Under the pieces are notes generated by a model that made no database searches, was not told the origin of the DNA, and was given only the letters and a program-made list of their open reading frames with translations. Positions 316-55,213 of a stretch of DNA of 64,000 nt are shown in pieces (within the stretch, counting starts at the first letter, position 1; the number at the start of each line of letters is the position of its first letter). Source of the DNA: Morchella semilibera (lineage: Eukaryota; Ascomycota; Pezizomycetes; Pezizales; Morchellaceae); contig CM018603.1 of assembly GCA_009192285.1 (NCBI GenBank), positions 4,624,062 through 4,688,061 on the forward strand, read 5' to 3'. The position numbers and the translations under genes are program-made.

Positions 316-630
316 TTAACTAAGAGCACAAAAGTCCCAAACAACCCACTCCTTAATGGGCGTCTCGGTTCCATTCACTAGCACATGCGTCACCGTTTCC
401 CTGCAAAACGGACACGGCATCGACGACGAGTAGGTGGGCTGACGGCTAGGCGGCGGGGCGCTGAACGGGCGTGAGATCACTTCCAAGTATGACTTCATTA
501 GGCAGTCGCGGCACAGGCTGTGCGCGCACTGCACAAACTTCATGGTGGCTCTGTGGCAGTGGCAGACGCCGCAACAGTCTGGGTCGGTGGAGGTGCAGGA
601 GCCCACGGATGCGTTGCGCGTGGTAGACAT
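316..630 (-). CDS. RING-type zinc-finger protein, short divergent member
   Basis: Single-exon ORF of 104 residues starting at a real ATG. A C3HC4 RING pattern is visible: C20-x2-C23, C35-x-H37, C40-x2-C43, then C73-x2-C76. The first six ligands match the other RING genes of this window exactly (11 residues between C23 and C35), but the loop between C43 and C73 is 29 residues, Pro/Ser-rich, and lacks the WW...HHWP signature. The tail (V..V..G....I..WV) aligns with the tail of the RING protein at 4788-5752 and then stops, so the conserved C-terminal RL...P box is missing. RING domains of this type normally act as ubiquitin E3 ligase modules; E3 activity here is inferred. It could be a truncated paralogue rather than a working gene. 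Confidence 0.7.
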   Translation of the reverse strand: MSTTRNASVGSCTSTDPDCCGVCHCHRATMKFVQCAHSLCRDCLMKSYLEVISRPFSAPPPSRQPTYSSSMPCPFCRETVTHVLVNGTETPIKEWVVWDFCALS

Positions 631-1667
631 AATGAGGGATTTGTTGGTTTTTTTTGGGTGGTGTTGGGGGGGGGGGGTGGTTATTTGTAGGCCGTAGTTG
701 TTGGTGGTGGTTGTTATTTCACTGGGTGGTATGGGAGTGGAATCAATGCTAGCTTTTTGGGGAATTTATGGTTGTGATAAAGTGTACCCTGGGAAGGTAA
801 GTATGGGGCAATTGAAGAAGGGAAGGAAACAAATATCATGAGGATCGACTACCACGGTTCCACAATAAACCCCATACTACGGGCCTAGTTATCGCCAGGT
901 TACTCTCCATCCAGGCCAGAATATAATCGTCCATCTCCCCACAATAGTACTACTGCCCCAAGAGGCTAGGCGGGTATTGATGTTGGGGACGGCAGACCCG
1001 TCGATATTGAATGGGATAATGGGGATTTTGGGTGGTTGTGTTTGTATATTGTGTTGCTTACACGGGTGGTGGTTTGCTGGATAGAAAATGGGAAGGAGTG
1101 GTTTGTGGAGTCTATAGTTGCTGCATTTCGAGAGTATATGGTGGTAGAGCATGCTTTGGACTGGCCTCTACGGTGTAATAGAAGTAGGAGAATGAGACAA
1201 TATAACGTGACCTGAATGCTGCCGGCGCGTGGCATACGGAAAGGCTTTAAAAATGTAGTATATTACATTTCGACAATAGGTAGAATAGTAGGTGGGGCTA
1301 TCCTTGAAAGAGAAAGGTGGGTGTTGTGGTAGTATTTGGTGGGTCCTTACGCAAGAGCGCCTTTGGAGGTATGGGGAGGTGGCTGCACGTACCGGACAAA
1401 TAGCCTGGGGAATGATGCATGGTAACCAAGTACTATTGGGTCACTGATCATCATTCGGTCTTGGCCTGGAGGTCTCTGGTCTTTTTTTTTTTTTTTTTTT
1501 TGTTTACCTCATTACATGTATGCAGTCTCTCGGCTACGACGTGATCACACCATTTTATCCCAGAGTACCCTCCCTCCATCGCCATCTCAAAGAAAGACGG
1601 GGGGAGGCCGTGTACATGTCGTCTCTTCCCCAAGACTAACCAACCTAGTGCGCTCACTATCTCGAGC
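631..1667. other. Intergenic, no supported gene
   Basis: Upstream side of the minus-strand RING gene. It holds a G run (about 668-677) and a 20-base T tract (1482-1501). Short ORFs on both strands overlap one another and show no domain or convincing splice structure. Confidence 0.5.
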
Positions 1668-4787: not shown

Positions 4788-5752
4788 ATGTCAGGAGGGT
4801 TGACAGGGCCAGGTAAGTGCTCTCATAACCTACCAAACGTGGTGGAACCATAAACTAAAATGTATGCCCTCCGCAGCGACGACACTAGAGGAGGGGGATA
4901 GTGTTCTCCAATGGTTAGTGGACAGCGGAAATGCCCGTGTCCTGGATTCCTCGTCGCCCATTACAGATACTGGTAGGTCATGCTATTAAATCATACCTCT
5001 CTAATGGTCTCTAACATTAGCGTTTAGATACCCCCAGTCGAGGTCCCCTCGTCATACGTGTGTTAGATAACGGAAATGCGATTATCGAAAACCCCCGACC
5101 ATCGGATGACAATGAGAGCTCCGACTCGCCTACCGAATTACCTGTCACACTTGAGGCTCGAGCAGCTGCGCATCGAGCCGTATATGGGACCCGTCCACCA
5201 AGCCCCCACCCTGGTGTGCCTGAGTTTTGGAGATTACCTCCTGCCCGCCCAGCAGCTGCTACATCCCACAGCTCGCAGGTACCGCCACAAACACCGGCGC
5301 ATAGACGGATTGCCCATGGCGATATACGCTATAGTGCGCTCATGAGAAATATGACTAGTGGGGTTAGCCAACCCACGGCCCCAACGTCAAGGTCTACTTC
5401 ACCACCGGACACCAGCCCAGCACACCCCCCTAATGATGGTGTCAACATCTGCGACGTCTGCATGTCAAATGCTTCGACTATGCTTGGTTTTGTGGGGTGC
5501 ACCCATCGCCTGTGCGATGCATGTATCAATTCAATTTACAATAGCCATGTCACTGGGGCCCATGTTTGGCCCCCCAGCATCCCGTGCCATATGTGTAGGA
5601 ACCCGGTCCACATGGTCATCGATCGTGGTGAGCGTATTAGTTTGCCGACGTGGGTGCTCGGGTATTCGTTGGATGCCCGAATGAGATTGGTTGCGACTGA
5701 TCTAGAGAGGTCAGAGCCAGCAATTATGCGCCGTTGGATCCGCTATCAGTAG
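4788..5752 (+). CDS. RING-type zinc-finger protein (three exons)
   Basis: Model: exons 4788-4812, 4877-4972 and 5028-5752, with introns of 64 and 55 bases (GTAAGT...CGCAG and GTAGGT...TTTAG, the second with a CTAAC branch). It encodes 281 residues. The N-terminal two thirds is Ser/Pro/Thr-rich and probably disordered. The RING domain lies at about residues 182-226 with C-x2-C-x11-C-x-H-x2-C-x2-C-x20-C-x2-C spacing; the loop has HVWP in place of HHWP. The C-terminus carries the family box (RL...EP..MRRW). Likely a ubiquitin E3 ligase by domain, substrate unknown. Coding-looking sequence upstream (4182-4640) means the true start may be further 5'. The last exon is secure; the first, of 25 bases, is the least sure. 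Confidence 0.72.
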
Positions 5753-33497: not shown

Positions 33498-34810
33498 CGT
33501 TGATTCTGTTGCAGTTGATGGCAATGATCTGATATAGCGAAGCGAGGCCCTGTTAAAAAAAAAAAAACCGCTATGGGGTTCGGCAGGTTGTATTGAATGT
33601 GGCAATGCCGAGAATGGTAGCAAATTCTGATGATGATACAATATAAGTGGGATAAGGACGAAGTTGTGTCTACGGTACGATTGTTATATTTTAAAATTTT
33701 TATAATATGAGGTTAAATGTTTGATACACGTGTATTCTTCGGTACTGTTGTTCGTACAATGTACTCTACAGACAGTACATTGGAGCTTACAATTGTAAGC
33801 TTAGACCCTGTACTCTAATCCCTGTCTATATGTGTACATCCCTTACGCGAAACTTTAAATTTTGACAGCCCTTATTTTGAGCCTCGTTACCCCTGTCAAT
33901 CCCTTTAAGCGAGTTCAAAGTCTTTTATTTTCTTTTCTCATTTTTTAATTATAAAACCACTGTACCGCGGTTTAATAAAACATGAATCATGCCATTACAT
34001 TATTCTATTTCAATCCACCATTCAACCCTTCCCCACATGCAGGCCTCACCATGCCATATAAATTCCCTGAGCTCAATCACACGGCTGAAAATGACGTTGC
34101 CCTCTTCAATACATGCGGCAATCGGTGCTTTGTCATATTCTCTAATCCATCCGCATTTGAACCTGCCCCTCCTCAATTGGATCCCGTTGAAGATTCCATT
34201 GTTACTGTATTCGGTGTGGGTAACCAGCATGTAATGATGTCCTACGACAGGGTCTCGACCCGGTACCAGATCTCCACCGATGACTGTATTATCAAATGTG
34301 TTTTAATATATGAGATCATAAGATGTCAGTTTTGTATGATAAACTCACAAACAATATCGGCTTGTTGGTTAGGCATTTCGGTTCGTCTTGAATTTATGTC
34401 GGATTGATTGAGGTGATTTTGTTTGATGGTATTTTGTGAATGAGGGGAGATTGTGTATGTGACGGCGCGAGGAGGCCTTATAAACCTCTATATTTGATAC
34501 CACTTGTTTACATTGTGTATATTACACGGTACCAGTACTGCAGGTACATGTATTGTACAGTACAGTATGGTATCCTAAGCCCGTTGGTATATGTGTGCAC
34601 TCAAATATTATATTCAGCCGCATTATCAACCGCGCTAGTGCCAAACTTCAAAACCGATATCGATTGTAGTATCATTTTATTATAAGGTCTTTATATCAAT
34701 ATGAGGCGGAGGGGTTTGTTAGAGGGTATTCCTCGAGTGAATAATCGCGCCAGTATGTATGCCTCCTCAATTAATGTCGCACATGTACTAAACTGGACTT
34801 TATAGGGCGT
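33498..34810. promoter_or_regulatory. Divergent promoter region inside the CACTA element
   Basis: About 1.3 kb between the starts of the two element genes. It includes an open frame at 33982-34407 with some coding character (possible first exon of the transposase or a third small ORF) and an acceptor-like CTTTATAG just before 34804. TATA-like AT-rich stretches occur near 33680-33710 and 33940-33960. A TACATGTA palindrome lies at 34545-34552. Confidence 0.35.
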
Positions 34811-37800
34811 ATGCGATTGGAGGCCGCCAACCATATCACAGCTGATATGAACGATATTCGGATATATGAAGATATGATCGATGAGCGCGTGGCTGCAGTG
34901 GAGGATGATGTTGAGCCGCCAGATATTGGCGATGATTCCCGACAGCCGTTTCGAGATGTTAGCATTAATCTCTTGGGGGTGAACTACAACCATCAGCCTG
35001 ATGATGGAGATGAAAACGACGAACGAGACGATAACACAGACACGCCAGCTGTTTCTACTGGAACAGTTGAACAAAAGGGTGTGACAACTGTCGGTGCAAC
35101 TGATGCTGGTATGGCCATGTCGGACACGGTTCAAGAGCCGATAGTCTCTATGGCGGAAAAGTCGCAGACACCCGCATTTGATATTCAACAAGAGCCACAA
35201 GAGACTGTGGCGGATGGGCCACATCCAACGCATATCGATTCGCCGGTTGATGAGTTCCATCTAGCGCTGATGCTTTTTGCGACCACCGCCGACCTTTCGA
35301 GGAGTCAATACGACGCCCTTATAGAGGTATTGAGCCTGGCTACGATGGATAGCATTCGCACACTTCCCAAGTCTATACGTACTCTACGCGAACGATGCAG
35401 GAAGTCTTTCCCTTTAATGCATATCAAATCACGACAAATCGACATCAACCTGGATTCGACACCTCCTAAAACACAGACCCCTGGTTCGGCGTATTATTTT
35501 GATATAACAGAATATTGTCGTTTGTGGCTGAGCGACCCGGATATAAGCCGCAAATTCCATTATGGATTCGGAGAAATAGTCGATACACCATGTGAAATCT
35601 GGCATGGGGACATTTGGATGGAGAGTGTACGCTCTACTTCAGGGAAATTTGCAATGATAAGCGAAAACAATCAGATGAGAATACTCATGCCGTCTGATTG
35701 TGTGAGATATACAGACTCAGATGGTAGCGAAGCCATCGGAAGGGTCAAATGTATAGCAGTGGACCGTCGGGGTGGTATAGAAGTGTTGAGTGCGATTATA
35801 AACCGTCTAATTCCACGACACAATATAATAGCTACTATCAACTCGATTTTGTTAACCCCAACTAAACCGGCTCATGATAACGAATCAGTTTATCCTTCTT
35901 TCGATTTATACGATGGCTTAGAAGAGCTTGTTTTATTCGAATCGCGTGAGATCGTTCCTGTATCATGTGTTATATCCCGAGTATGGGTATATTTCACAGA
36001 CTATCAGTCTCCGGAATACCTACGCAATAGCCTGCTACCATATCCCCCTACATATTATGTTAAAAATATCGTTTATATTCATTCAGACACAACTGGTGTG
36101 AATATAAGATGGCGGGAGGTGTCTAAAAGACACAGAGTGGTTGCAGAGGACGAGCTTGTCCAATTAGGACGTGCTGCAGTCATTTCCTCGTTCGTACAAC
36201 GTCCCGGTGATGGATCTCAACGGCCAATCCGACGCATATCAATCCCTTTCTCGATCTTTTTAGATGGTTTCGGTTTATACAGGAATGCATATCATTCGTT
36301 GAAAGGGATGTATGTTACACCTGCATGCATGAACGTGGACGATCGAATGAAATTGTCAAACATGTATGTGCTCATGATTGGCCCGTTTGGTACGAGCGAG
36401 GTTAATATGGCTGCGTGTCTAGAGAAAGATAGTCTGGCAGCAGGCGCTGGGGTTGTGATGACGATGGATAATGGCGAGAAGGTTATGATTACAGCCTTCC
36501 CAATAATGTTCACCGGAGATATGCCACAACAGAATCAAAATTCGGGCAACAAAACACATAATGCAGAATTCGGATGTAGGTTTTGTTTCGTTGGGAACAA
36601 ACAGAGAGGCGAATTGAATCTCGACGCAGTATCGACAGGGAGATATAAAGCGCCAATTAAATGTCTATACACTCAATCGACAAGTCTCAACAGTAAAAAG
36701 TCATGTGCGGACGCCCTCCAGAGGTACGGACTTACCCCAGAAGGTCCATACTTTCGGAAATGTTACCCCATGATGGATACCCACCGGGCTACCCCCAACG
36801 ACCCCTTCCATGCAGAACTGAGACTATGCAAATATTATTCCGAGGCTTTAATAGATGGGCTCCTATCTCCGGCTGGGATATCCGCATACAGAGAAGCGTG
36901 GAATAAAATCAACGTCCCTTTCAGATGGGGGCAACCACAAAATCCAGTTAATCACAAAGGCTCCATGGTTTTTAGCGAACACGGTAAAATGGCGATTATA
37001 AATCCGTTCATACTCATGAAACTCTTTTTGGATCACGACGGACACCAAACAACTACAAAATCATACTTCAAAGCAGGTGCTGAAGAGCGGATAAAGAGAG
37101 CATTTAGCGACGTACAAAAAGACAGACAAAAAGAGCCGAAACACCATATAATGCACACCGCTTTCCTCTTAGCGAAAGTAACACATCTAACCTTGAAGAG
37201 ATGTCTCACCAAAGAAGAGAGGTTCGGATTTGCGATAACATTGATTGAAATGAGAACCATGCTTCGCTGCTTTTTTAATTCTACTATAAGCTCCAAAGGT
37301 GGTTTCCAAAAATACGCAGACGTCCCGAATATCCACTTGGGTATACACTACATGAAAGACATAGAAAACTTTGCCACGACATTCAATGCCACGACGATGT
37401 TAGGGGAGCAGAAACACAAGATATTCAAAATGCACGCCGGTCACACCAACTCTCAAGAGAACGATCTGCAATTGCTCAAAGTCATAAACACACTACAAAC
37501 CGTGAGATTCGTTCTACAAGGGGCATTCACAATATCGTCTCCCAGGCTCACTACACAAATGAGATCAGTCATAAGCAAATGCCCAGTGTTAAAAGAACGT
37601 TTTTTGGGAATGCACGAAACAGTCAATAAACCAGGGGATATTCACCATAGTACGACGTACGTACCCGATATCGACATCAGAGATTCTCTCCTGTTATCAG
37701 CAAACACTGGATGCCAGTTAGCTTTAAAGAATACACAAAACAAACAACTCGATCGGGACCTATTAACACACAAATACGGCATAGAATACAACTCTCCAGT

Positions 37801-38116
37801 GACACTACAAACACACGCGAAGATAAAAATCCATTATTGGAATTATTTCGCTGGAAATCCATCAATTAAAAATAGAGAGTTCGACAGGAATCACAAATTT
37901 CGGGCTGTGACAGGGGATATCATTCGCGTCAAAAGGGATATAAGCGGTGATGGCCATATATACTGTAGGATCGAACGGATATTCACAGTATATATAGGCA
38001 CATTGACAAGAGTTTTCTTTGCGGCTCGGTTCCTAGAAAGAGACAACACACAAGAAGTAGAATACATACCATACGAGGTATATAAAGCTACTAAAGAGAC
38101 AGATGTCATAGGATAA
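34811..38116 (+). CDS. Tnp2-type transposase of the CACTA element
   Basis: Uninterrupted ORF of 1101 residues. Residues 1-150 are acidic and disordered. The catalytic half carries landmarks of the Tnp2/Plavaka-like transposases of fungi: G569-D-M-P-Q-Q573ff followed by C589-R-F-C592, and about 65 residues later D656-T-H-R-x-T-P-x-D-P-F-H667-x-E669, an acidic/His block in the position where relatives have a DTPVE...H motif. Around residues 840-900 lies another conserved block (HLGIHY...GEQKHKIFK...HTN). It likely cuts and rejoins the CACTACA ends. No stop or frameshift is seen, so it may be active. The ATG at 34811 follows an acceptor-like CTTTATAG, so a 5' exon may be missing. I could not assign the DDE residues with certainty. 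Confidence 0.85.
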   Translation: MRLEAANHITADMNDIRIYEDMIDERVAAVEDDVEPPDIGDDSRQPFRDVSINLLGVNYNHQPDDGDENDERDDNTDTPAVSTGTVEQKGVTTVGATDAGMAMSDTVQEPIVSMAEKSQTPAFDIQQEPQETVADGPHPTHIDSPVDEFHLALMLFATTADLSRSQYDALIEVLSLATMDSIRTLPKSIRTLRERCRKSFPLMHIKSRQIDINLDSTPPKTQTPGSAYYFDITEYCRLWLSDPDISRKFHYGFGEIVDTPCEIWHGDIWMESVRSTSGKFAMISENNQMRILMPSDCVRYTDSDGSEAIGRVKCIAVDRRGGIEVLSAIINRLIPRHNIIATINSILLTPTKPAHDNESVYPSFDLYDGLEELVLFESREIVPVSCVISRVWVYFTDYQSPEYLRNSLLPYPPTYYVKNIVYIHSDTTGVNIRWREVSKRHRVVAEDELVQLGRAAVISSFVQRPGDGSQRPIRRISIPFSIFLDGFGLYRNAYHSLKGMYVTPACMNVDDRMKLSNMYVLMIGPFGTSEVNMAACLEKDSLAAGAGVVMTMDNGEKVMITAFPIMFTGDMPQQNQNSGNKTHNAEFGCRFCFVGNKQRGELNLDAVSTGRYKAPIKCLYTQSTSLNSKKSCADALQRYGLTPEGPYFRKCYPMMDTHRATPNDPFHAELRLCKYYSEALIDGLLSPAGISAYREAWNKINVPFRWGQPQNPVNHKGSMVFSEHGKMAIINPFILMKLFLDHDGHQTTTKSYFKAGAEERIKRAFSDVQKDRQKEPKHHIMHTAFLLAKVTHLTLKRCLTKEERFGFAITLIEMRTMLRCFFNSTISSKGGFQKYADVPNIHLGIHYMKDIENFATTFNATTMLGEQKHKIFKMHAGHTNSQENDLQLLKVINTLQTVRFVLQGAFTISSPRLTTQMRSVISKCPVLKERFLGMHETVNKPGDIHHSTTYVPDIDIRDSLLLSANTGCQLALKNTQNKQLDRDLLTHKYGIEYNSPVTLQTHAKIKIHYWNYFAGNPSIKNREFDRNHKFRAVTGDIIRVKRDISGDGHIYCRIERIFTVYIGTLTRVFFAARFLERDNTQEVEYIPYEVYKATKETDVIG

Positions 38117-40594: not shown

Positions 40595-42178
40595 AAATAA
40601 GTTACCTCACATGTAAGGTTGCTCGGCCCTTTTCTAAAGGTAGCACAACTAACCGTTTTATTAGTAACTTGGGTTTCGGCCGGAGCTACATCACATGTAT
40701 GAAGCCCCCCGGATATGTTCAATGCTGCGGGGTATGAAACCTTAGACGGACCATGCGCGATGAATGTAGGGGAGGGGGTGAATGTAGATGCCTCGTGGGG
40801 GGCGGGGGGCGGTGGGTAGATGGGTTGGTCAGGATTGGGGTGGTGGTACGTTGGGCACTGATTTATCCCAATATCTTAGATCCTGCCCGTGTGTAGAACT
40901 AAACTTAGATTCTGTAACGAGTGCTGCTCGCGTGTAGCCTAAACAATCCAAGTAATGATATCAGTATCATAAGATATTATAAAGTTCCTTAAGGGATCTC
41001 TGGGCAACATTGGTGGGGGAGTGTATAAAATAATAATGGGAGGAAACCTTTTTTACTCACCGGCGGAGTTTGGACATACTGGCTCACATTAGATTAAATG
41101 ATAGCGGGTGTATCTTGCGGGAGGGGTCGTCTCCTCTACTAGAACCGAATAGATGTCCTGTCGTGATATCCTATCCCACGGAATTTTCGGCTTGCGGGAA
41201 CCGCCCAAAATGGGCTGATCTAAGTTGATTGTGGCGGCAGGGGGTGTGTAAAGGGATATCTCAGAAGTCACTAAGATATGGCTAATGCTAAGCGATAGTT
41301 CTGTAGCTTTTAAACTTGTAATATTGTAGACCGGATTCCGTTCGCTTGAGAGGATGATGATTCCCCTAAGACGACGGGAATCCTACTAGCTATTTATACA
41401 TGAAGAACCCCCTTTAAACCCGTTAACTCCTCCAATAGCAAATCTCCCGCAATGCCTCCGCTACTGCTCCGACTTTCTACGAGGTGGGGTATCCAGGGGT
41501 CCACTCATAAGGTGTGGTAGTGGTTGCCGAGTTGTAACCGAACCCCGCTTCTGGGCGTACGTCACTCTTCCCTCGTGCCGTCATACTAGGACAATCCCAT
41601 TGTACTACTAGTACCGCACTTCCAGGCAATCCTGTAACAGGGTGGGTGCGGAGGGAGGCCACTGGTTAAGGACAAATCGTGTGTACTAGCCTAGCGTACA
41701 GAGAGTGGGGGGGGGGAGTTGGAGGAGGGAGGGAGAGAGAAAGAAGGCTTGGTGAAAGATTCTAGTGAGGGGATGCGCAAGGGAAGATCAAGCTCAATAT
41801 GGAATGAGCTCCCACCAAGGTATGAAGGGACTTGGAGCGATTCAGAAAAAATCTCATCGATGGAAAAACCAAGACGTTCTTCTCTGGATCATGTCAGATG
41901 CCCGGATCCTGGGGCTTTTTTGAAAATGTCAATTGTTGAGTCCAAAAGAAATGGAGAGTCCAATTCTACTGTGCCAAGCGCCTGCCCTCGCTACTTTCCA
42001 TTCTCCATCAAAGACTGATCCGCGGCACCACCCCCTACAACTCCTACATCCACAGCAAGTATAGTTGTCGAAATTCCAAAACCATTCACACGGTAAGTGC
42101 AGCTGACAGGAATCTAATTTATCCATTTAGCCCACCCCAAAACATCTAACACCACCAGAAATAGGGTACTTCACGGTT
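40595..42178. other. Intergenic, no supported gene
   Basis: Right flank of the transposon and leader of the next RING gene. G-rich tract near 40796-40814. Minus-strand ORFs at 41089-41271 and 41477-41662 are short and without domains; either could be an exon of a gene hit by the transposon, unproven. Confidence 0.4.
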
Positions 42179-44108
42179 ATGCCACCACGCGCCAAACCAC
42201 CTACCTCTACCGGGGAGTCTGGGTCATCCTCAGTAGGAGCTCATTCGGAGGCTGCTGAAACACAACGCCTAATTGGCGCCGCAAGGGGGGATACTCGCGC
42301 TGGGCCTCGGAGCCTGGCCGCGACAGACGGAGACCGTAACGGAAACCAGCGTTCCAGACGCCGTGCAGGTCGTTCCCTAAGCACCAGTCACGCACCCTCT
42401 GCAGCTAATGGACAGATAACCCTTCCTTCTGGAAGGGTCTTTAACCTAAGAAGCTCAACTACTCAGCCGGTTATTCGTAGGCAAAGTGAAGGAGTGCAGT
42501 CTAGAAGGGTCCGGGGTTGCGGGAGCTCCGCTCTCCAGTCAGCAAAACGTGCGTTGTCGTCTCGTTACCCCTCACTTGGAAGTCCGGAAGGTCAAAATAA
42601 ACCTACGACTGAGTTACCCATGGTGAGGGAGGCCTCCCAGGCCCCCCTACCCCTAGAGTGTTTCAGGGAAACTGATCAAGACAGCCCCAGAACGTCGAAT
42701 ATTGTGGGAGAAGGGCCCTTACCCACCCCAAACTCTGATATTGTGGACAGATGCACCCAAGAAACCCAACAAGGATCAGCATCCGAGGAAATAATTCACT
42801 CCAACTCTCCTCCTTTACTTTCAGTTATTATCGCAAAGGGTGATGCTCAGAGTGCGAAAATAAATGAATCCGGCAAGAGTGGTAAACGTTTTGCAAAGAG
42901 TTTGGCAAAGCTGAATCGATTTTACAACTCTGGTATGGACAACGTTGAGGCCTGGGTACCTAACATAGAGGACAAAGAGTACTATAGTTGGAAAAAAGAC
43001 ACCCCCGACCCACCACGTACTATATCCCCCAAACCCCATCTTACGCCCAAATACTAACGCGGATAATAGCGAGATGGGGGCCTGGCGAGTCGCTAGCGAA
43101 CGTTTTAACGCTCCCAGACTCATCTGGTTCGGAGGATGAGGAGGGCCCCGTTAACAGATCGCAGATAATGGGCATAAGGATCGATAATCGATATGAAGCT
43201 GATGCCAGGGAACCCAACCCCCTAGAAGGATCCAGCTCTGGTAGCGATGCAGGCAGTAATGATACTGTCAGGCGTGTTGGACATGATTTTGTGTATCCCA
43301 GGGGGCAGAAGCCGCCTGCTCGTCAAGCGGGAAGTAAGAGCTTACGCAGTGATGATACTACCGATGACGGTTATGCTGCTGTCGTAGCATTCAATAACGC
43401 TATGGTTGCAGCCCAGAGAAGGGCCGTAGGGACTCGACACATGGCTAGCCACTACCAAAAAGAACCTATCCAACACGAAAAGGAAGAGTTAGATTCAGAC
43501 TCAGAAGAGGGTAGCGAAGAGAGTGGGGATGAAAGGTATAGATTCCAGACATTGTCCGTCATCTGCTGATACTGGTTTTTCCACCCGTTGGCAGAAAATA
43601 GCTAACCTCTTGTAGAACACCAACTCCATCCAAGCAGGAGAACGAGGATAGTGATGAAGATGAGTATTGGGAGCAGTCTTCAATGCGCCATAATGATGAC
43701 TGTCAACGCTGCCGAAGCCGCTACGCGAATGTCTGGCTTGGCGGCTGCCGCCATTGGATTTGCGAATCCTGTATCGAGGCTTGCTGGTGGGACCAGGTCG
43801 AGGGGGAACATCACTGGCCCACATTTATTAAATGCCCACAGTGCACCAAAGGGGCTTCCTGGGCTCATAAGAGTGGTGCTCATGGGACGCCACTTGACTA
43901 TTTCGTGGTCAATAGGAGCGCAGACGCTATTAAGCGGTTGAGGAACGAGACCCTGGATCTTGTCAACCCCCAAAGCATGCGCCAATACATTGTGAGGATG
44001 TATGATCCCGAATCCTATCTGGCCTCTCGTGGCTTTGAAATGATACTGACATTGCTATCCAGGAGGTTCTACTTCGGGATTGATGGAGGGAATCCGAATG
44101 TCTCTTAG
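42179..44108 (+). CDS. RING-type zinc-finger protein, long N-terminus (three exons)
   Basis: Exons 42179-43016, 43070-43535 and 43616-44108; introns of 53 bases (GTACTA, branch TACTAAC, AATAG) and 80 bases (GTATAG, branch GCTAAC, TTGTAG), giving 598 residues. The first 460 residues are Ser/Arg/Glu-rich, without a domain and probably disordered. RING at about residues 464-508, spacing C-x2-C-x11-C-x-H-x2-C-x2-C-x20-C-x2-C with the WW...EHHWP loop. The family C-terminal box follows (KRLRNETLDLVNPQSM), then about 30 extra residues not found in the relatives. A ubiquitin E3 ligase role is inferred from the RING; substrate unknown. Largest member of the cluster. Confidence 0.8.
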
Positions 44109-44515
44109 AACGACGTCATGAGGATTCGGCGAAGTTAGGCTTTATCGTGAATCCGAACGTGGTGACCTGCCTTGATTTATCATGAGCACTGGTGCAAGTT
44201 CAGTAACTTACTGTTCATTATGTGCTCAATTACCTTCTTTTATTTCCTGAAAAAGCAGTAAAGCACTGTCGACTAAGTCTAAATAAATACTCCCTACTCT
44301 CTTTAACAATCATATCCCTCCTACCATTTTATTCTTGGAACTAATTGAAGAACGCACTATTTGTACACACATAATTACATGTTCTTCGCGCGTTGAATAA
44401 GCTATATGCTTAGATAGCGGATTGATTCACTTATGCATTGAATAGAATCACATCCATTTTTGCCAGCTGTCCCACTACTATTCCCTCCTAGAGGGGCCTA
44501 TATATTGTTTTCTGT

Positions 44516-44962
44516 ATGGAGTCATCGGGCCTCCTAGCCACTGCTATGCCTGCAGATGTATACCCTGGCGACATCCCGCCTGAAAACTACCCCCAGCACT
44601 GTAGGTACCAGGTATCTCAGGGTGGCGATGGGATCCAGGGACTACCGCAATCAGTTGCAGATTCCAAAAAATGCGAGCTTTGTGCGGCCCCCTGGTCCCA
44701 ATTCCCCCCCACAAGCTCAATTCTAAAAAAATCATACCGACTACCAGCCTTCTTTCTAGCTGGTTCCACAAGCGGGGAAGCTGGTCAGGATGGTAAGGCC
44801 CGCCACTCCGGCAACAAAGTGCACCTGCACGCAGAGGGTCCTACTCCTGGGGAAGGCGCTGAAACGAATTGGGCGGAAAGAACTGTGGTTGGAGGTCTGC
44901 AATTGGTAGAAAGCGGCCTGGTACCTGCTAGAACGAGCTCCTTTATCGGGAGAAGACTCTAA
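44516..44962 (+). CDS. Hypothetical protein (low confidence)
   Basis: 148 codons from an ATG, single frame, Pro/Ser/Gly-rich with two Cys (CELC). A TATA-like ATATATTG lies about 15 bases before the ATG, which is close for a promoter. No domain, and composition not far from chance. It may be a small gene or a remnant of another RING-family N-terminus. Confidence 0.3.
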   Translation: MESSGLLATAMPADVYPGDIPPENYPQHCRYQVSQGGDGIQGLPQSVADSKKCELCAAPWSQFPPTSSILKKSYRLPAFFLAGSTSGEAGQDGKARHSGNKVHLHAEGPTPGEGAETNWAERTVVGGLQLVESGLVPARTSSFIGRRL

Positions 44963-45812
44963 GACGTGCTCACAAACAAACCAATACACAGTCTGGATGA
45001 GCATTTCGGGTTAATGCGTTTGGTGATTCCTTAACTAAGCCCGTTGGGTGCCCAATGGACTCTAGAACAAGGTTCATTCGTTGTAGGTATCTCTAGAAGG
45101 GACCCATTTGGCCTTGCGTTTGCTGGTTTTTGCCTTGCACCGTGGAGGTTGGCCGCAATTATTCTATCAATACATTTCATATATCATTTGTTAGCAGGTT
45201 AGAGTGCAGGAGAATACCACCAGCCTAGTAGGTAAGGAGTCGGATTGAACTTTTGTCCACAAATAGTAAATAGTAGGAAGACTCGTATCTAACTAAGTGA
45301 TATATTAAACTCTTGATTGCTTTCCCGGTGTATTACCCCAGGACACAGCAATACGATTCCGTTCTCTGGTTTAACAAACCTGCCATTTGATCCATCATGT
45401 TATGATAGATTTCCACAGGTAGGAAGTAGGTGCCAAATATAATTCACTGCCGATGATTTCCCGTTGCTTGTGCGGGGGGATCGGGATGCAGTCACGAGAT
45501 ATCACTCGGAAGCCACAATGTGACGAGCAGGATGTTGGCTAAGAAAAAGAAGAGAATGTACAAGTAGGGACTAGTGCCCCCCCCCCCCCTCCTGTCCAGA
45601 GATAGGTACTTGTGGGCCAACACCAACTCTTCTCATCCCATCCCACCAACCACACACAACGCTACATTCATTCCAACCAACTCTTCATCAAAGCAATCGA
45701 TAGGTACTCTACCCCCCCCCCCCACTCCCCCCGCAGCCCCCCTAAACCAAGCTGGCCACATTCTAATACCATATCAACAAACCCACAGAGTGACGGTGGG
45801 GGCATAGACAAA
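44963..45812. other. Intergenic; leader of the next RING gene
   Basis: No gene. Two runs of C (about 45577-45589 and 45713-45724) lie in the pyrimidine-rich leader just before the ATG at 45813. Confidence 0.45.
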
Positions 45813-47319
45813 ATGTCACCCTACTTCAACTACAGACCCAGTAGCCGCAGGTCACACCACGGCTCAACTGGCAGCTCAAACTCCAATCCATGGCGCAGAA
45901 GCCCGCCCGGGCGCGACCGCCAGCCCCATTTCGAGATCTACGAAGACTCAGTGGAAGAGCAGATCAGCAGTGGTGCGGACATCAATCCACTACGTCCAGG
46001 AGTAAGTACCTATGACCACTCCAAGAGTGATTTCTTGGGCTTGCGTTAGTTGACGGTCACTCACCTTCATTGTCACCAGGTTGCCTCTGGGCAAGAGAAC
46101 ATCTTTACGCCCGCTCGCCCCTCCCCCAGGATCTCTGGCGAGAGAGTCCCTCTTCAAGATATCACGCCAGAGAGAGCACCGCTAGGTGGATTCTCCCTCG
46201 GCGGTAATGCTACCTTTAGAAGACCTTCGCTCCAAGCCCTTGATATTGAAACCCTTAGCCTCCGCGATCACAGAGGTGACAATAATGTAAATGATATGAG
46301 CAGTGGTCAACACCGCATGGGTAATAGCAGGGCCTCCACCCCCTCTCATACCTTGACGCCAGGACCCCTCATTGTCCTCGGGCCTCAAACCCCTGTCAGA
46401 GGCGTTCCTTACCATGCTGGTGCAGGTACTATTCCTCCCACTCCCCGACCCCCCCAGGCCGGCGGGGATGGCGGTAGCAGCTTGCAACAGCGGTTTCAGG
46501 AGGCGATGGGACTACTAAATCCGGAGGTAGATCAGCGCCCGAGACTTGGATATATCAACTACCGTGAAGTAGATTTTGGTACTGCAAACCATCAGCGTCC
46601 AATTCGGAGAGTAGTCGACAGATCTACAGGTACTGAGTATGGGCAGGGGAACAATTCATCAGCTCATCCAAACCAGGCGCCAGGTTAGAACTCCAATCAC
46701 TTATTTTTTGACAATAAAGATTGCTAATTACCCTATAGGAAGAAATGAAAATAGGCGGAGTCCTGATGAGCATGGGCAATCTGGAAATTGGAGCCCCGAT
46801 CCTCAGCACCAACCACTGCCCAGGCCCGGCTCAAGCTTCTCCTACCGCCCCCACAGGGCCTACCTGAGCGAGTTGGATGTAGAGCGCATGAATCTCTCTC
46901 CTTTCAGTTACTACTACGACCGGGACCCCTACGACACCGTATCTAGCACCAGCACCTACCACTCCACTGCCGACGCCTCCGACGCAACAGACATGGAGGC
47001 CACCAACCCACTAGTCTGCCTCCTCTGCACTCGGCGCGAGGCCACCCTTTCATTCACAGTCTGCGCTCACAAGATCTGCCCCTCCTGCATGGTGGGCACC
47101 TGGTGGGGGTCCATCAACCGCCCCAACCAGTGGCCAGGCACTGTTAGCTGTCCATTCTGCCGCGCTGAAATTACAGAAATTTCGGATGCGGGGAGCCCAA
47201 TGGTCGCGCTGTTGTATTATGTCTGCCATAAAAGCAGTCGCGCGAGGCAGAAGCTCAGGAGAGAGGAACTCGAGCTAGTTCAGCCGCCTGTAATGAGGGT
47301 GTATCTGGCGAACATGTGA
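45813..47319 (+). CDS. RING-type zinc-finger protein (three exons)
   Basis: Exons 45813-46001, 46080-46683 and 46739-47319, introns of 78 bases (GTAAGT...CACCAG) and 55 bases (GTTAGA, branch GCTAAT, CTATAG), giving 457 residues in closed frame. N-terminal 350 residues are Pro/Ser/Gly/Arg-rich. RING at about residues 358-402 with the family spacing; loop WWGSI...NQWP, so the first His of HHWP is replaced by Asn and the second by Gln. The C-terminal box RQKLRREELELVQPPVM is the clearest version in the cluster. Same strand as the gene at 42179. Likely E3 ligase by domain; substrate unknown. Confidence 0.82.
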
Positions 47320-48584
47320 GATTCAAACTAGGCCCCTTTTGAATTATAAGAGCTGACACTGTACTGTAGGAGGGTACATTACCATGGGGTTGTTTGAATG
47401 CAGTGAGTGGATCGATCGGCATATCTCTCTTGATACTAGCGATCATTCATTAGAAAAATAAAAGGTGATTTTTGTGGAGTCAGCTAGTGAGGATTTGATT
47501 GTCAAGTTACCTCTGCTCTCATAGAGTGTATTCTGTATACTGTTGATGTTAGTTTTGGTTGTAAATTAGCTCAATTCAACTCGATCTTCATCTTTCTTTG
47601 TGCCATAGTGCGCGGGTCCAAAGACGTAAGAAGCTCAAAGAAACAGCGATCATTGAAGCTTGAATAGCTGCCTAGCACATCTATATGACCCTATTTTGTT
47701 TTTGTTGAAGCTCAATTGTTTGCCTATAGCTAGAGTAGTGAACGAGATCGACGGGGAGGAGGGGAGGAGGAACAAGGAACACTTATTTAACTCCCTTTGG
47801 CTAATCTAAACGATAATAATGATCGAGTGATACGTCATGATTGTGCAATAGCAGGGGGTAGAACGACTGAGTAGCCAGACGAGAGAAAAAGGAACATGAC
47901 AAGAGAACAGGATATAAGCGTTCAAGAATGGTAGAGTGGGGATAGCGGAGTCGTCGTCGGCCATGAAGTGCATGAGGCTTGATCCACTTGCCCACAAAAG
48001 CACTGTGGCATTCCTGAAAAGGAATCAAAGAAGTGAATCGTGTCCTTTGGGTAAGGACTGTAATGTAATGTACTCCAAACCAAAGTCCCGTTGGCCGGTA
48101 GGTTGAGAGGCATCGACGTTACAATGGAAGGTGCATTTGAGTTCTTTTTTGTTATCACAACATCACACGTTTATGGTGGAATATGAAATCCCACTGGGTC
48201 CTCACAACATGATCGAAATAATGATAAAGACCAAATTGCTAAAACAGCCTTGAATTGAAATCTACTGAAATTGTAGACTAAAGATTCAAACACAGGTGGG
48301 AAATACCCAAGGAGACCGCCCGCATACCTTCCCCCCCCCCCTTCCTACCAATCCCCCAAACCCTGCGCTTTGGCCTTTGGACTCAGCATGCCATGTATAA
48401 AAGCTGCCACAAGTTCATAACCCGCTTTTAGGAGGCATACTAGGAAGGGAAGGGCCTAAGGTCCTGAACTCCCGTCCCACGAGCCCGGGCACTTTGCGGT
48501 ACCAAATGTGGTAAAAAGAGCTCACGATGCCTATTAAACTCATTAGCCCACTTTTATCCAGCTTCCATCACCAAATAGACAAAC
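47320..48584. other. Intergenic between convergent RING genes
   Basis: Lies between the 3' ends of two RING genes. No coding region; short C run near 48331-48341. Confidence 0.45.
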
Positions 48585-49493
48585 CTACTTTGCCAGAAAC
48601 CACAACTGCAATCTCTTAGGGACCACATTGCAAATCCTCTCCCACCCCAGCCGCTTCCTGACCGACCTGCTACTAGAAAGCAGCCAGTCCAACAGCCCAT
48701 GTTTTTCTCCTTCCACCACAACCTCCTTCACTACCGCCCTACACAGAAAGCATGGCACCTCCTCCGGCCAGTGGTGTTCGCTTTTGATCCGACCCCACCA
48801 CACCCCCTTCAAGCAAGAAGCGCAGAGGCTGTGGGCGCACGTGGCGAAACGCACTGTGGCCTCTCGGCGTAAACACAGTAGGCAAGCACTTTCGTCATCC
48901 TCGTCGCAGTCTGAGATGTCAGAGGTGTCGCTGCTGGCCTCGGTGTACTCGGGGATCTCGCGGGGCACCGTGGAGGTTTCAGATTCCGTGTCCGTATACG
49001 GCTCTGTGTCGGCCTCAGAGGTGGTGTGCTCTGGCTCTGCAGGGGGAACATCGGTGGCGGGACTCGGGTCTGGTTCGGTGTCGCTGTCTGTGTCGTTGGC
49101 GATGGCAGGAGCTGGGTTGCGATAGGTGTCTGGGAATATGTTAGCCTTGAGAAAGGAGCGGTGGGATTATGCTTACGGAATGGAAAGCCATTTCCCACGC
49201 CAATCGGGACCAGCAGCGCCTCAAGATTCTGTGGCACTCTAGCCCACGGGTTTAACGGGTTGGCTATCGTATTGTCCGTCCCAGGCCACTGCCCGGTCCA
49301 CTGCCTGGTTGGCGGAGGCAGGGGCTGCGAGTGATTTTGTTCCTGGAGTCCCCGGCTTTGGTGGCGGTTGGAGGACACTCCTAGGAGTTAAGTTAGAGTT
49401 AATAGCGGATGATTAGTGAGGGGATAGTGGGGGAGGGCTAGGAGGAGGTAACAAACTACGACGCAATGAGCCGCGGGGGATAACGGTGGGCAT
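48585..49493 (-). CDS. RING-type zinc-finger protein (three exons)
   Basis: Minus strand: exons 49493-49460, 49380-49177 and 49129-48585; introns of 79 bases (GTAGTT...CTCCTAG) and 47 bases (GTAAGC, branch GCTAAC, CCCAG), 260 residues in closed frame. N-terminus is Gln/Pro/Asn-rich, then a strongly acidic Thr/Ser/Glu/Asp stretch (about 100-160). RING at about residues 162-206 with the exact family spacing and the loop WWGRI...EHHWP. C-terminal box RKRLGWERICNVVP. Opposite orientation to its neighbours, so the cluster is not a simple direct tandem array. The first exon (34 bases) is the least certain part. Confidence 0.78.
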
Positions 49494-50491
49494 TCGGATC
49501 GGTTCCTTGAGTGTTGAGAGTGGCGTTAGAGCGTGTTGTGTTTAGGATTAGGGAGACTTGGATGGGTTACTGAGCTTGGTGATTGCGGCTCTGGAGGAGG
49601 AGGAGGAAGGATGGGTGGGTGTCGAGGTGTAGTTGATGGCTTACAGGATGACCTAGTTTTACGGGTAAGCTTTATCGTTACCTTACTTAGAGCTGGATTT
49701 CAAATGTAAACAATATCACGGTTGAATCTTTCATGTAGTGGAGTTTCTGGATGCTGCTGTTCTACCAACCTGAAAGGAAGATGGGATCTACCTCTATCTG
49801 ATCTTTTCTATGTTGATAATGTTGATAATTATTGGTTTGGTAGGAAGCACCAATCAACACCACCACAATATCTGATTACGTTCGATAAAGACCTACCACC
49901 CCACTACCTACCGCTAAGGGCAGAGTTTGGGTAACCCGCTTTTGCTGCTGGGCACAGGCTTCTCTCCCAAGGATAGGCTCACCACCTTTGACGCTGGCTG
50001 TTCTATTTCTTCTTAGCCACCTAATTAAATAATCATCTCGTTCCTTCTATAATCATACACCCCTTCATGTGAGAATACTAGAGGAGGGACCGCTCCACTG
50101 GGGAGACGTAAAAGTAGATTACGGCCCATTAATGGACTCACACCCACTCCAGGAATCTCCAACTTGCGATATTACGGTACTTGAGCTGTGGGTGGAATGG
50201 AACAAACCCAGATGGGTGTTGTGCGAAATGAAGTCACGTCAAATGTAGCAAGTAACATAGAAGATCGTCTAATCCAGTGAAATGTGTTTCCCTGAAAGGT
50301 TTACTGGCTAACTCTCAGCCGCCGGAATTACTTTCAACTCGTCCCAGTACACGCTCCTCTAAATACTTTCAATAACGTCACCATCTCCCGCAATCAAGTT
50401 TCTCCAATTACCATCAAAAACAAGCAAGTAACCTGCACTTTTTTTCTCCTTTACCGTATTGGATATAGCATAACAACTACCTCCACCAGAA
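49494..50491. other. Intergenic between divergent RING genes
   Basis: About 1 kb shared upstream region of two RING genes on opposite strands; a bidirectional promoter is possible. No coding region. A/C-rich just before 50492. Confidence 0.45.
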
Positions 50492-51217
50492 ATGTCTCAA
50501 CTTCCCACCTCCCCTCACGCAGGCCATCCTCCAAACACCTGGAATTCTGGATCTGCCCTCCCCGCTCACGTCGTAACCAATGACCCAATTACCCACATAT
50601 CAGACCAAGCAGCCTCTACCTCTAACGCCGAAGATGAAAACGGCTATGCGGCCCCTACGGACGGACAGTATAACACTGACGATTCCGAGGTTGGTGAACC
50701 TAACGAAGACAGCGAAGAAGATACATCATCCGACGAAAGCAGCTCCAGGAGCAGCAGTGCCTCCCCAGATCTACCCACGGCCGCCGAAGACCTGACATAC
50801 CGAATACAAGTTCTCGAAAGCACTCTCCAGGACCACCAAGAATCTGGCTACTTATCCGAAAGCGACATCGACCCCGACAGCGATGACGATGACGAAGCGC
50901 GCGAATTTAGTACTTGTGCGATCTGCTCCCGCCGCCTGGCAAAGATGTGCCTGTTCCCCTGCGACCACTCCCTGTGTTCCCCATGCCTGATTGGAATGTG
51001 GTGGGCCAGGATCACCATGCCGCACCACTGGCCGGAGGAAATAAGCTGTCCGTTCTGCCGCTCTGTGTGGGGGGATGTGATGGACGGCGAGGGGGTGGCT
51101 TTCAGTGTGCTGCTCTGGGTGTTGCTGTATAGTAAGAATGCGATGTCCAGGCTGCTGGCAGAGGAGGTTGGGGTGGGGGAGCCGGCGACTGTCAGGCCTC
51201 TTTTGCTGCAGATGTAA
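50492..51217 (+). CDS. RING-type zinc-finger protein (single exon)
   Basis: 241 residues, no intron needed, ATG in an A-rich context. The N-terminal 140 residues are dominated by Ser, Asp and Glu, with acidic blocks (DSDDDDE just before the RING). RING at residues 142-186 with family spacing and the loop WWARI...PHHWP. C-terminal box SRLLAEEVGVGEPATV. E3 ligase function inferred. Because it has no intron it is the safest gene model of the family. Confidence 0.85.
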   Translation: MSQLPTSPHAGHPPNTWNSGSALPAHVVTNDPITHISDQAASTSNAEDENGYAAPTDGQYNTDDSEVGEPNEDSEEDTSSDESSSRSSSASPDLPTAAEDLTYRIQVLESTLQDHQESGYLSESDIDPDSDDDDEAREFSTCAICSRRLAKMCLFPCDHSLCSPCLIGMWWARITMPHHWPEEISCPFCRSVWGDVMDGEGVAFSVLLWVLLYSKNAMSRLLAEEVGVGEPATVRPLLLQM

Positions 51218-51568
51218 GGCTCGCTAGGCTGAATGTGAGATTGCTTGATGCTAATGCTTTTTCTTTGTGGTATAGACGTACCCCGCTTGCCTAAACCCAT
51301 GGGCAGCCTACAATGGGCTTGATGGAACTACTGCGGAGGGGTTCAGGGACGGTTTGGGAGAAAGGAGGATTGGGATGTGCTAGGGGTTTATCTTGTTTGA
51401 TATTCTTGTACTTTGCCCTGCACTCTGAGAATCTTTGAGTACCGATAGTCCATGAATTATAGGGGTCCTGTGGGAAGGAAGTAGTTTCCCCTCTAGATAA
51501 TTTGACAGCGGGTGTAGAAAATTTAACCCTGGTTCTAGTCACTGGGGCGTCAAGCATATGTTTGTAGG

Positions 51569-51834
51569 CAGTGATTCCAACGGTTGAAACTAGTTGTATT
51601 CGGAGGTCATACCATACCGAACTGAACTGAATTACATGTCCAACTGAACTGAACTGAACTAAACTGAATATTAGTTCTCTAAACCGGTTTAAGACGCAGA
51701 ACCGTTCTTCTGTTTGGTTTGCAGGTTCATAAGCTGGATGTGTTTTCAGAGTCCTTTTCTTGATTTATCAGGTGCAATTAAGCCCACCCAAAACCGGTTC
51801 GTTTGGTAGAACGGGTGAACCATTGGAAACCATG
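51569..51834. mobile_element. hAT-like MITE, copy 2 (internally deleted)
   Basis: 266 bp matching the element at 1668-2092 at both ends, with about 160 bp of the interior missing. Same left end CAGTGATTCCAACGGTTGA; right-end complement CATGGTTTCCAATGGTTCA. The flanking octamers (TTTGTAGG and TTTTTGGT) no longer match well, so this copy looks older than copy 1. It lies between two RING genes. Confidence 0.85.
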
Positions 51835-52778
51835 TTTTTGGTGGATGTGCACTTTTGAGGGCTACAAGACATCTCCATGATGATAAACTATGACGATGTT
51901 GTTATCGCACTAATGGGGAGATTGGGACCTATCTAGCAACTGATATCTCACCTTTTAACACAGATATATAGGAATGTCCCCTCTGCGGCGGTGCGGAAAG
52001 GATCCTGTGGCCTGGAGTGAGATCTGATGATCCAGGTACCGCGGGCCTGCAAAATTAACCGGACGCTCACGTTGCAACCATGCAAATGGGCTACAATAAC
52101 CAAATTTCAAATTGCTTCAATTGAGTCCACATTGGAATATATGATAATATGAGTATAGAGAACACCAAAGATGAAATCTCATACATTTATCTGTTTTGGT
52201 TGTGGTGTAGTTGATGTTGAAGTTGCTTTCCCATACAAAATTTGGTTACAACGCGGTGTCCGGTTAATTTTGCAAACTAGCAATAGTATCTTTTTTCGTC
52301 TCAGGTGAAAGACTAGGTAGTACAAACATAAGGGCCAGCTGGGACTAAACTTCATTGAAATACAAAACGAAACTAGCTACATTGCTCCGAACATGGCACC
52401 AATGAAATCAAAAAATAAGCTTGAGCCGGGCGCCGAGGTACACAGATATAGGTGGGCGGTGGAATACTGAAATGGCGTGATACTGTTGCAAAAGATTGGT
52501 AAGCTACTGGACCAAGAGATGCTCCAACGGAAGTGTAACTAGGATTGATTACCCCGCGTTCTAAGGTGACTCCGAGGTCATTTTTAGTATAAAATACAAC
52601 GTCTTCCCCGTCACCCCTCCAGTTCACATTCATCCCATAGCTTTACCAAACAAAACAGCTTTCAGCCAAGAACTCTGCGTCAAACAAGGTGAGAATAAGG
52701 TCTTGTTTAGGCCCGTTGAATCATTAATCTACGACACACTGACACCACCACTCCCCGCCCCCTGGCTAATAGTTGATA
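51835..52778. other. Intergenic, no supported gene
   Basis: No coding region. A minus-strand ORF at 52373-52633 has an ATG but no domain. Confidence 0.4.
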
Positions 52779-53702
52779 ATGGCTGCAAACTCTCCTCACC
52801 AAAACCAGGTTGAGGTTCCGGCCGATGCCCTAAGGGTTCTTTATAGCGTGTTGATTGCTCAACAACATCGTAGATTCAGCCCCATGCACCAGGATCCTCT
52901 TGTTGGTGAGAGGGCTTTATCTGTGCTTATTATCCGTCTCAACTAACAACTCGCAGGCTCTACCCAGCAGAGTATGGATCTCATTGCTCCTCAGGCAGAG
53001 GATACAAGCCTGGCTAGCGAAGCGATTGAGAGCTCCAATGAAGATAATTCCATCAACAACTATGATGTGGATGATGAATATCATGGAGCAGAGTGCAACA
53101 CGCCACTTCATCGCCTCCGTGGTGTTGCCGAGTGCCACATTAATCAAGTTGATGTTGCAAACCCTGAAGACAATCAACAACAGCAGCGTAGTCTCGTTTC
53201 TTCTACCAGATTCTCTGAGCATCAGGCTGGTGAGACATCCACAAGCCAGGTAGAAGACAACGAAGAAAACCAGGTCGACACTGGCGAGGACCAGGAAAGA
53301 GATCTGCAAGGGGAACACCAAGCTCAAGAGGATTATGCCGAGTCAGCCGGGGCCTCCGACGAGGAAGGCGACTTGCATGCACCTCTCGTTTCCAGTTTGG
53401 AGCTCGATATCAGTGAAGAATACAGGTGCACCATCTGTTACCGCCGTATCGTGCAAGTGACACTTGTTCCGTGCCGGCATAGGATGTGTAGACCATGTCT
53501 TATCCGGATGTGGTTTGCCAGCATCCGTTTTCCACATCACTGGCCTGAGTACATTCGTTGCCCAATCTGTTACTCGCGCCACCGTGTGCGTTTGGTCACA
53601 CAGGTTCTGGTTGCGAACCAACGTGCTAGACGGAGGTTGGCACTGGAGGATATTGAGTTGGTTCAACCATCTTACCTCCAGCCTTTCATGCGCAGAGTGT
53701 AA
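52779..53702 (+). CDS. RING-type zinc-finger protein (two exons)
   Basis: Exons 52779-52905 and 52957-53702 with a 51-base intron (GTGAGA, branch ACTAAC, TCGCAG), 290 residues in closed frame. The short first exon forms a helix-like segment (ALRVLYSVLIAQQ). A Glu/Gln/Asp/Asn-rich acidic region follows. RING at about residues 200-244 with family spacing and the loop WFASI...PHHWP. C-terminal box RRRLALEDIELVQPSYLQ. E3 ligase role inferred from the RING; substrate unknown. Confidence 0.82.
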
Positions 53703-54441
53703 GCTATCCTTAGATAGTTGAGAAGATTGAGATTCCATCTGACAGGTGATTAAGGCAGGAATTATTTCGTCGTATCGGGGAATAGATTCATCTCATTTCT
53801 CTTCCCCTAAGATACTGGCCAATGGGAGGTGTTTTAGGCGATAGGGTGAGAATTAGCTGGCTGCCTCCAGGTATTGCTAAGCTGCTGGGTTACAAGGCGT
53901 TTCTGGAATTTTCATAGCATAATCCCACCTGTAGAGAGACCAAGAAGGTCCTCAGGATCTATTTCTATTTTAGCACTAGGCAATAAAGACATTTGCTTTC
54001 ATGAGAAGATCAACGGTTCCACGTGGCTATATCTTATTTCTCAATCTTCCATTCTATTTAATAAAATTTAATACTCAGTCGGCAGAAAAACACTAAGTAG
54101 GATAGGTTGCGGTTTTTCGTGGCTAGGTCACATGACAGAGCAGGAAAGACGTTATTTAACCTGTGAATTTCAAAACGACACAGGTTAAAACAGGTTACAG
54201 TGGTGAGAGTACTGATACAAGAAGCTAACTCCCAATCATGAAAAATTGAACCACCACCCCCCGTACAACGCCTATCACAAGAGTAGGCAAAAATAGAACC
54301 TTGACCTATACGAAAGCTCCGTGGAAAAAAAGGGGTATGGATATCAAAACCACCCAAATACTAGCTATTTGAGACCCTTAATGGAAATTCTCCCGGTAAT
54401 TGGCTGTTTCGTCTTCCCTATTTAAAATCTCAGTATTCTAT
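53703..54441. other. Intergenic between convergent genes
   Basis: No gene seen; AT-rich around 54050-54070. Confidence 0.4.
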
Positions 54442-55213
54442 CTAGCCACCTTTGGCACAGTTATAAGACGATAACACATACTGACTGGAATCCTCGTCAT
54501 TGCTCGATCCTGTGAGGTCAATAACCTCACGTTCGTTCTCGGCTAGCAGATCAGCACGGGTAGTAGGCATGGTTCTAGACCTGTAGCGAAATCTATACGA
54601 ATGACATTAATACCTATTCCGGTCGATATGAATTGAAAATGTTCTAGTTACCCGGCATAAGCTACTCCTCGACCACGACGTGAGATTCTTGCAGAGTTGG
54701 GTGGGAATTGATCAAGAGTGGTCGTGTCTAAATGGCGGTTGGATGGCGTGGGGTTGGACAGCCGGACAAAAGGACGAGACCTTCTTGCAGTTTGAATTCG
54801 CCTGTGAACTGTGACGCCAGGCGGGCCATCCGCTTGCCCGTTGGAGGTGCCCTGGGATGGACTATGGCGATGCTTAGTAAGCTGGAAACATCCATCACAC
54901 ACAATGGGGGGAAAACCTACATGCTGATACTTGCACCAATTGTCTGGAATGGCGTATGCTGAGCGGGGTCAAGAGAGGTGGAGCGCTCTTGAGTTTGGAT
55001 GGGGCGTGGAGGGAGGGGGAACCTGACTTCGCGTCCGGCGGGATTGGGGATGACTTCCCCGGCGGCCATGCTGTTCCCGATATCAACGGCCTCACGGTCC
55101 CCGTTGAGAGAGGAGAATAAGACATCCTGATTCCTACCTTGAGTTCTATGATGAGGCTCTACCGCCGGCGCGGGGCATGAGCCAGAGCCAGGAGACTGGG
55201 CTGGTAGAGACAT
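54442..55213 (-). CDS. SUMO-interacting-motif protein with a Cys/His cluster (three exons)
   Basis: Minus strand: exons 55213-55096, 54958-54652 and 54580-54442, 187 residues in closed frame. The second intron (71 bases, GTAACT...GCTACAG) is good; the first (137 bases, GTGAGG...CGCTCAG) is longer than usual here. Exon 2 begins with a Cys/His-rich segment (W-C-x-Y-Q-H...C-D-G-C...H-x-H) that may bind one zinc. Near the C-terminus (about residues 154-166) is E-V-I-D-L-T followed by SSNDEDSS: a hydrophobic core plus acidic/Ser tail, the classic SUMO-interacting motif. This suggests a partner of SUMO or SUMOylated proteins. It sits next to the RING cluster, but no RING is present in it. An upstream exon is possible because the frame is open beyond the ATG. 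Confidence 0.6.

Follow-up and report, generated by a model that had tools for sequence, protein, structure and literature searches.

A stretch of 64,000 nucleotides from the morel Morchella semilibera (C1:4624062-4688061, 47.5% GC, the whole of which is called here the window) holds seven members of a family of RING-finger genes, and the loci of this family, at least 16 in the genome and 15 of them with an unbroken frame, most probably specify E3 ubiquitin ligases of the RING type whose N-termini vary, ligase activity being predicted. Eight loci lie within 72 kb, from C1:4624422 to 4696070, seven of them inside the window, and the eight others are found on contigs C1, C11, C15 and C20 of a genome sequence of 56,756,124 bases in 23 contigs (7,341,407 bases in C1). 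The homology between the members, the tail shared by those in the window, the predicted RING fold, the residues on the face that would contact the E2 enzyme, the constraint at the protein level and the genome positions were all established computationally.

Five of the window members have one exact spacing of their zinc ligands. In a six-frame scan, the pattern C-x2-C-x11-C-x-H-x2-C-x2-C-x20-C-x2-C was matched exactly five times (43701-43844, 47017-47160, 50915-51058 and 53427-53570 on the forward strand and 48741-48884 on the reverse), with no sixth match anywhere in the window, and these matches fall precisely in five of the genes for which a first-pass annotation had claimed it, namely those at 42179, 45813, 48585(-), 50492 and 52779 (genes are named here by window position, the sign marking the reverse strand). 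One hundred random windows built from the first-order base transitions of the window (Markov-1) contained neither exact nor relaxed-pattern matches, against five and seven, respectively, in the real one. The same spacing had been ascribed to gene 4788, which instead has C-x2-C-x12-C, i.e., x12 for x11 (RING 5450-5596), while 316(-) proved to be a RING relative (403-573) whose last C-x2-C is preceded by a long loop of x29 rather than x20 and in which the WP is missing. As for the loop described as H/Q-H/Q-W-P, it reads HHWP in four of the five exact genes, NQWP in the fifth (frame 46615-47319) and HVWP at 4788. The x11/x20 spacing falls within the general C3HC4 consensus; the second zinc loop is long, with 20 residues that include the WP. 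BLASTP among the window open reading frames (ORFs) gave homology over the RING and the tail that follows it, with E down to 1.4e-22, and the window RING genes are homologous beyond chance. Across an alignment of all seven members there are nine invariant columns, including the eight zinc ligands in the C3HC4 order by which RING-type E3s are recognized.

The family is larger than the seven genes initially proposed, since one more member lies 7.8 kb beyond the window end (C1:4695825-4696070) and eight others elsewhere in the genome (in kb, C1:5183, C1:3553, C1:3556, C20:3747, C20:3764, C15:239, C15:241 and C11:843). The protein query C1:5183 finds all 16 loci, the weakest match being C1:4624422 (E 0.012), which in a smaller BLASTP matches its nearest relative, C1:4695, with E 9e-15. 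Other queries recover 10 loci (50492, at E<=0.001), 15 (C20:3764) and 12 (C1:3553, both at E<=1), and the Pfam profile PF24921 yields 28 genome matches that comprise all 16 loci, every one of them below the cut-off. As the genome search scores its best candidates only, the count is to be taken as a lower bound. A DNA pattern for W-P-x4-C-x2-C gave at least 132 genome matches (its reversed control gave 72); they include C1:5183, C11:843 and all but one of the eight cluster loci, but the pattern is too loose for counting the family. Two candidates seen in Pfam searches only and missed by the protein queries were excluded, C11:439 and C19:295, the latter also having an odd composition (its tail gave E 0.0057 in a lenient search). 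The member at C11:843202-843466 is divided between two reading frames inside the RING region, and it is probably a pseudogene or the product of a sequence error. At C1:3553619-3556624 (-) two relatives lie side by side and share 50% identity along most of the protein, the N-terminus too; the tail profile described below detected no window-type tail in them.

After the RING, six of the window members share a C-terminal tail some 50 residues long. The module of RING and tail from gene 45813 (107 residues, with the 46615-47319 frame as first sequence), modelled with AlphaFold together with six window relatives, reached pLDDT 91.5 and pTM 0.82, and in this model the tail forms a pair of strands and three helices that pack on the RING as one domain. 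The cross-brace RING fold is reflected in a Foldseek probability of 1.00 to RING structures in the PDB (best E 2.5e-3), and the closest structural neighbours of the module are the RINGs of IDOL, Cbl, Bre1/RNF20, MUL1 and the IAPs. Among the matches listed for the module as a whole (the tail alone was not used as a query), none covers the tail well, the longest being HOIL-1, up to model residue 95, and there is no Pfam match at E<=0.1 over the tail in the frames scanned. In a lenient search confined to ten other tails, a profile of the six window tails matched eight of them under E 0.01, the doubtful C19 row included; run against all the ORFs collected, and beyond its six training frames, it placed the C11 frame alone past the inclusion line (E 0.00088), with C15_241 at 0.02. 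The tail is solid within the window and weak outside it.

In RING domains, a hydrophobic residue two positions past the first Cys takes part in E2 binding, and the linchpin Arg or Lys in ubiquitin activation. At the former position, I, L, V or M is found in 14 of the 15 unbroken members; Arg follows the last Cys in 12, and both features are kept in 12. The Arg is lost in 42179, 52779 (where Tyr replaces it) and C15_241, and in 42179 the hydrophobic contact is lost as well. In gene 42179, which has Arg at the E2-contact position and Thr following the last Cys, E2 binding is doubtful, and both 42179 and 52779 may be weak ligases or act in regulation. Six residues ahead of the seventh ligand stands the W of the WP, near the position of the E2-contacting tryptophan in c-Cbl, and on this analogy the long loop is probably the ordinary E2-binding loop in a variant form. 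From these features we infer E2 binding, ligase activity and roles for the tail and the N-terminus, in a scheme where the rear half of the protein would be the enzyme: the RING would bind a UBE2D-like E2, the Arg that follows the last Cys would keep the E2-ubiquitin linkage in its closed state, the tail would extend the RING by about 50 residues and pack on it (in six window members, with weaker indications in others), and the variable N-terminus would select the substrate or serve as a site of regulation.

The RING and everything after it lie within a single open frame in all seven window members, so that these parts are independent of the intron models. Upstream of them, models with up to three introns of 45-110 bases each, built on a limited choice of GT donor and YAG acceptor sites, are open but not unique (93 for 42179, 450 for 45813, 562 for 52779 and 194 for 4788), and the start codons annotated at 42179, 45813, 52779, 4788 and 50492 are all present in the sequence. 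In the gene that starts near 42179, the exact-spacing RING with HHWP and the tail are in the last exon (43602..44108, +); the upstream exons and introns probably occupy 42179..43615 (+), with exon borders that are not unique, and the first open frame there has no Pfam match above the cut-off. Likewise, the gene starting at 45813 has its RING with NQWP and its tail in the last exon (46615..47319, +), preceded by probable upstream exons in 45813..46688 (+) with non-unique intron borders. The RING, with HHWP, and tail of gene 48585 lie at 48585..49166 (-), in an open frame without Met that for this reason requires an upstream exon, whereas gene 50492 (50492..51217, +), of 241 amino acids and with a tail reaching the C-terminus, needs no intron. 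The remaining exact-spacing RING, with HHWP and a shorter start of the tail, belongs to the frame 52974..53702 (+), upstream of which an extra exon from 52779 is possible. As for the relatives, the last exon of the gene starting at 4788 spans 5021..5752 (+) and has a conserved tail, and 316(-) spans 319..765 (-) with a shortened one. The N-terminal parts are unlike one another, as had been proposed, with no convincing alignment among the window members. Their acidic character holds in part: at least 10 D/E are found in the 40 residues before the RING in seven of the 15 unbroken members, but it is not general, genes 4788 and 316(-) having two each. In a full-length AlphaFold model of gene 50492, pLDDT stays under 60 for most of the stretch ahead of the RING, save for a helix at 97-118.

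The family had also been described as fast-expanding, which the sequences do not support: with 16 loci as a lower bound it is modest in size, and among the matches listed there are no recent near-identical paralogues. The closest pairs among them (the C20 pair and the C1:3553/3556 pair) share 50% identity along most of the protein, rising to 61% and 55%, respectively, over the RING and the residues after it. Pairs of window members among those listed have 23-41% identity over RING and tail. A tree was built from 17 rows, namely the doubtful C19 row and the 16 loci, with C11 represented by its first piece only; its median end branch amounts to 1.38 changes per column and one of 14 inner branches is well supported. 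The cluster members do not form one clade (three changes, a value equally low in nine of 500 shuffles, and 0% of bootstrap trees with them as a clade). A recent burst is not visible, and no duplication history is claimed from the tree. Over all pairs of 13 members (those other than the C15 pair, C11 and C19), the share of aligned codons with an identical base is 46% at position 1, 50% at position 2 and 34% at position 3, where saturation is near; this is the pattern expected for protein-coding genes under constraint. Repeat-driven duplication was also considered and rejected: a search of 41500-54500 at 25 bases or more returned a single 31-base family, of which two copies lie inside RING coding regions and a third, 65% alike, just beyond the end of gene 48585.

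The surroundings of the cluster are poor in known domains. In this island, i.e., the window plus flanks of 10-20 kb, the non-RING ORFs with a length of 230 amino acids or more number 13 (among them the upstream frame of gene 42179), and one of these has a Pfam match at E<=0.001, against seven of ten background ORFs, although the contrast is biased, since the island ORFs are shorter than the background ones and the background loci were chosen by the author. The background set, from regions flanking other RING matches, consists of the ten longest of 33 ORFs listed, leaving aside one overlapping antisense frame, and two of its seven Pfam-positive ORFs come from one gene. A frame of 1113 amino acids at 34775-38116 (+) matches the Plavaka transposase below the cut-off (E 0.0021, 17.8 of 26.3 bits) and is probably a DNA transposon, located centrally in the island. 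Six short ORFs that by eye look helical or coiled-coil (14371-15159, 18666-19148, 21782-22612, 23174-23923(-), 26000-26461 and 27736-28302) have no Pfam match over the cut-off and no mutual BLASTP match at E<=1e-3, and that at 21782 finds itself alone in the genome; they are possibly a second, very divergent orphan family. Outside the RING genes, 1709-1858(-) and 51294-51764(-) are 62% alike over 53 residues and perhaps remnants of one repeat. Regarding the assembly itself, the contig pairs C9/C10, C12/C13 and C21/C22 show the same matches at near-equal coordinates (C12 has 1,576,628 bases and C13 1,575,470), so that this assembly, made from a single spore, seems to contain some of its sequence in duplicate, whether as two haplotypes, through aneuploidy or as an assembly artefact.

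The reading of these genes as E3 ligases retains part of the original proposal, in that a homologous multi-gene RING family with unlike N-termini and E2-face residues fitting an E3 has stood, and the rapid expansion has not. Several observations weigh against it: the Foldseek E-values against the PDB are weak and the VIA Z remains below 8; the tail is no clean family mark, its matches below C15_241 being mixed with unrelated ORFs, and the C1:3553/3556 pair scores nothing with its profile; three of 15 members are without the Arg and one without the hydrophobic residue; and some proteins with a RING fold are not themselves ligases. The members could accordingly be zinc-binding scaffolds or dominant-negative partners of active E3s, in agreement with the E2-face losses in 42179, 52779 and C15_241 and with the lack of a known substrate domain. 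Nevertheless, both E2-face features are kept in 12 of 15, and the best structural neighbours, such as IDOL, Cbl, Bre1 and the IAPs, are active E3s, so we regard this as unlikely. A stronger contender, which still falls somewhat short of being probable, is that these are ancient paralogues that dispersed slowly, belonging to a RING family general among fungi and serving ordinary cellular functions, with its other members outside the collections searched. The deep divergence together with the protein-level constraint, the matches of generic Pfam RING models and the dispersal of loci over C1, C11, C15 and C20 speak for it; the absence of a Pfam match to the tail in the frames scanned speaks against it, as does the packing of eight loci into 72 kb, which suggests local duplication.

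That packing, the unlike N-termini, the tail without a Pfam match and the domain-poor island with its Plavaka-like transposase ORF speak, on the other hand, for an E3 family restricted to the lineage and turning over fast, which would serve nonself recognition or genome conflict with its variable N-termini as the recognition parts. Set against this are the lack of recent duplicates among the matches listed and the long end branches, the absence of NACHT, HET, WD or ankyrin partners among the window ORFs scanned, the mostly disordered N-terminus modelled for 50492, which is unlike a recognition domain, and the fact that a single genome was examined and that the island contrast is biased by ORF length; such a role is, in our estimation, very unlikely. 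The same low expectation applies to a class of E3s specific to morels or Pezizomycetes, clustered in an orphan-gene island, in which a RING-tail module would be joined to fast-changing N-termini and each member would direct ubiquitin to a different partner (e.g., in heterokaryon or parasite recognition). If active, the ligases favoured here would be an unnamed group of small E3s with a structured RING extension in an economically valued edible fungus, and their compact module is suited to testing how a C-terminal extension alters RING activity. A conflict role, if true, would matter much more.

In relation to known systems, domain scans of 12 members (all but 316(-), C1:4695, C1:5183 and C11) have RING_XB3-XBAT31 (PF24921) as best or second-best Pfam match in all 12. 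However, none of the 28 genome matches reaches its cut-off of 50 bits (best 45.7), which leaves the family outside XB3/XBAT31, and ankyrin repeats such as those of XB3/XBAT31 were not found in the frames scanned. Unlike in the RBR ligases (HOIL-1, parkin, RNF144A), no IBR or RING2 follows the RING in these 12 members and the doubtful C19 frame, a short IBR_1 match below the cut-off overlying the RING itself of gene 42179. The RINGs of TRIM/RBCC proteins have a similar spacing, a long second loop and a tendency to expand, and TRIM RINGs are among the PDB matches of the morel module, but in the 12 members no B-box comes after the RING, which is followed by the tail alone. Viral and bacterial origins were also contemplated and set aside. 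The 46615 frame had no match to six peptide patterns in viral contigs, and 50492 gave 17 pattern matches in genome contigs, none confirmed, exact short peptides being insensitive in both cases and such viral and prokaryote scans saying little about fungi. A search of BFVD returned 447 matches at E up to 10 (best E 8.8e-4 at a root mean square deviation of 10.8), the best 50 of which are mostly RING, CG30, PE38 or IAP proteins of insect viruses or giant viruses, some of them unnamed. No such family of morels or Pezizomycetes is described in the literature searched (titles and abstract starts for part of the matches, with few subscription journals), and no word starting with 'ring' occurs in the available part of the main text of PMC7014384 or PMC13208314. 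With IDOL/MYLIP, c-Cbl, Bre1/RNF20, MUL1 and the IAPs, the morel family shares the predicted fold, the zinc ligands and the E2-face residues, and it differs from them in the 20-residue second zinc loop with WP and in the tail of about 50 residues after the RING; nor did the frames scanned contain a BIR, FERM, TKB or any further known domain. The RING subfamily is thus real and of a known kind, the searches having given no name for it, and it is of note for its composite RING-tail module and its clustering.

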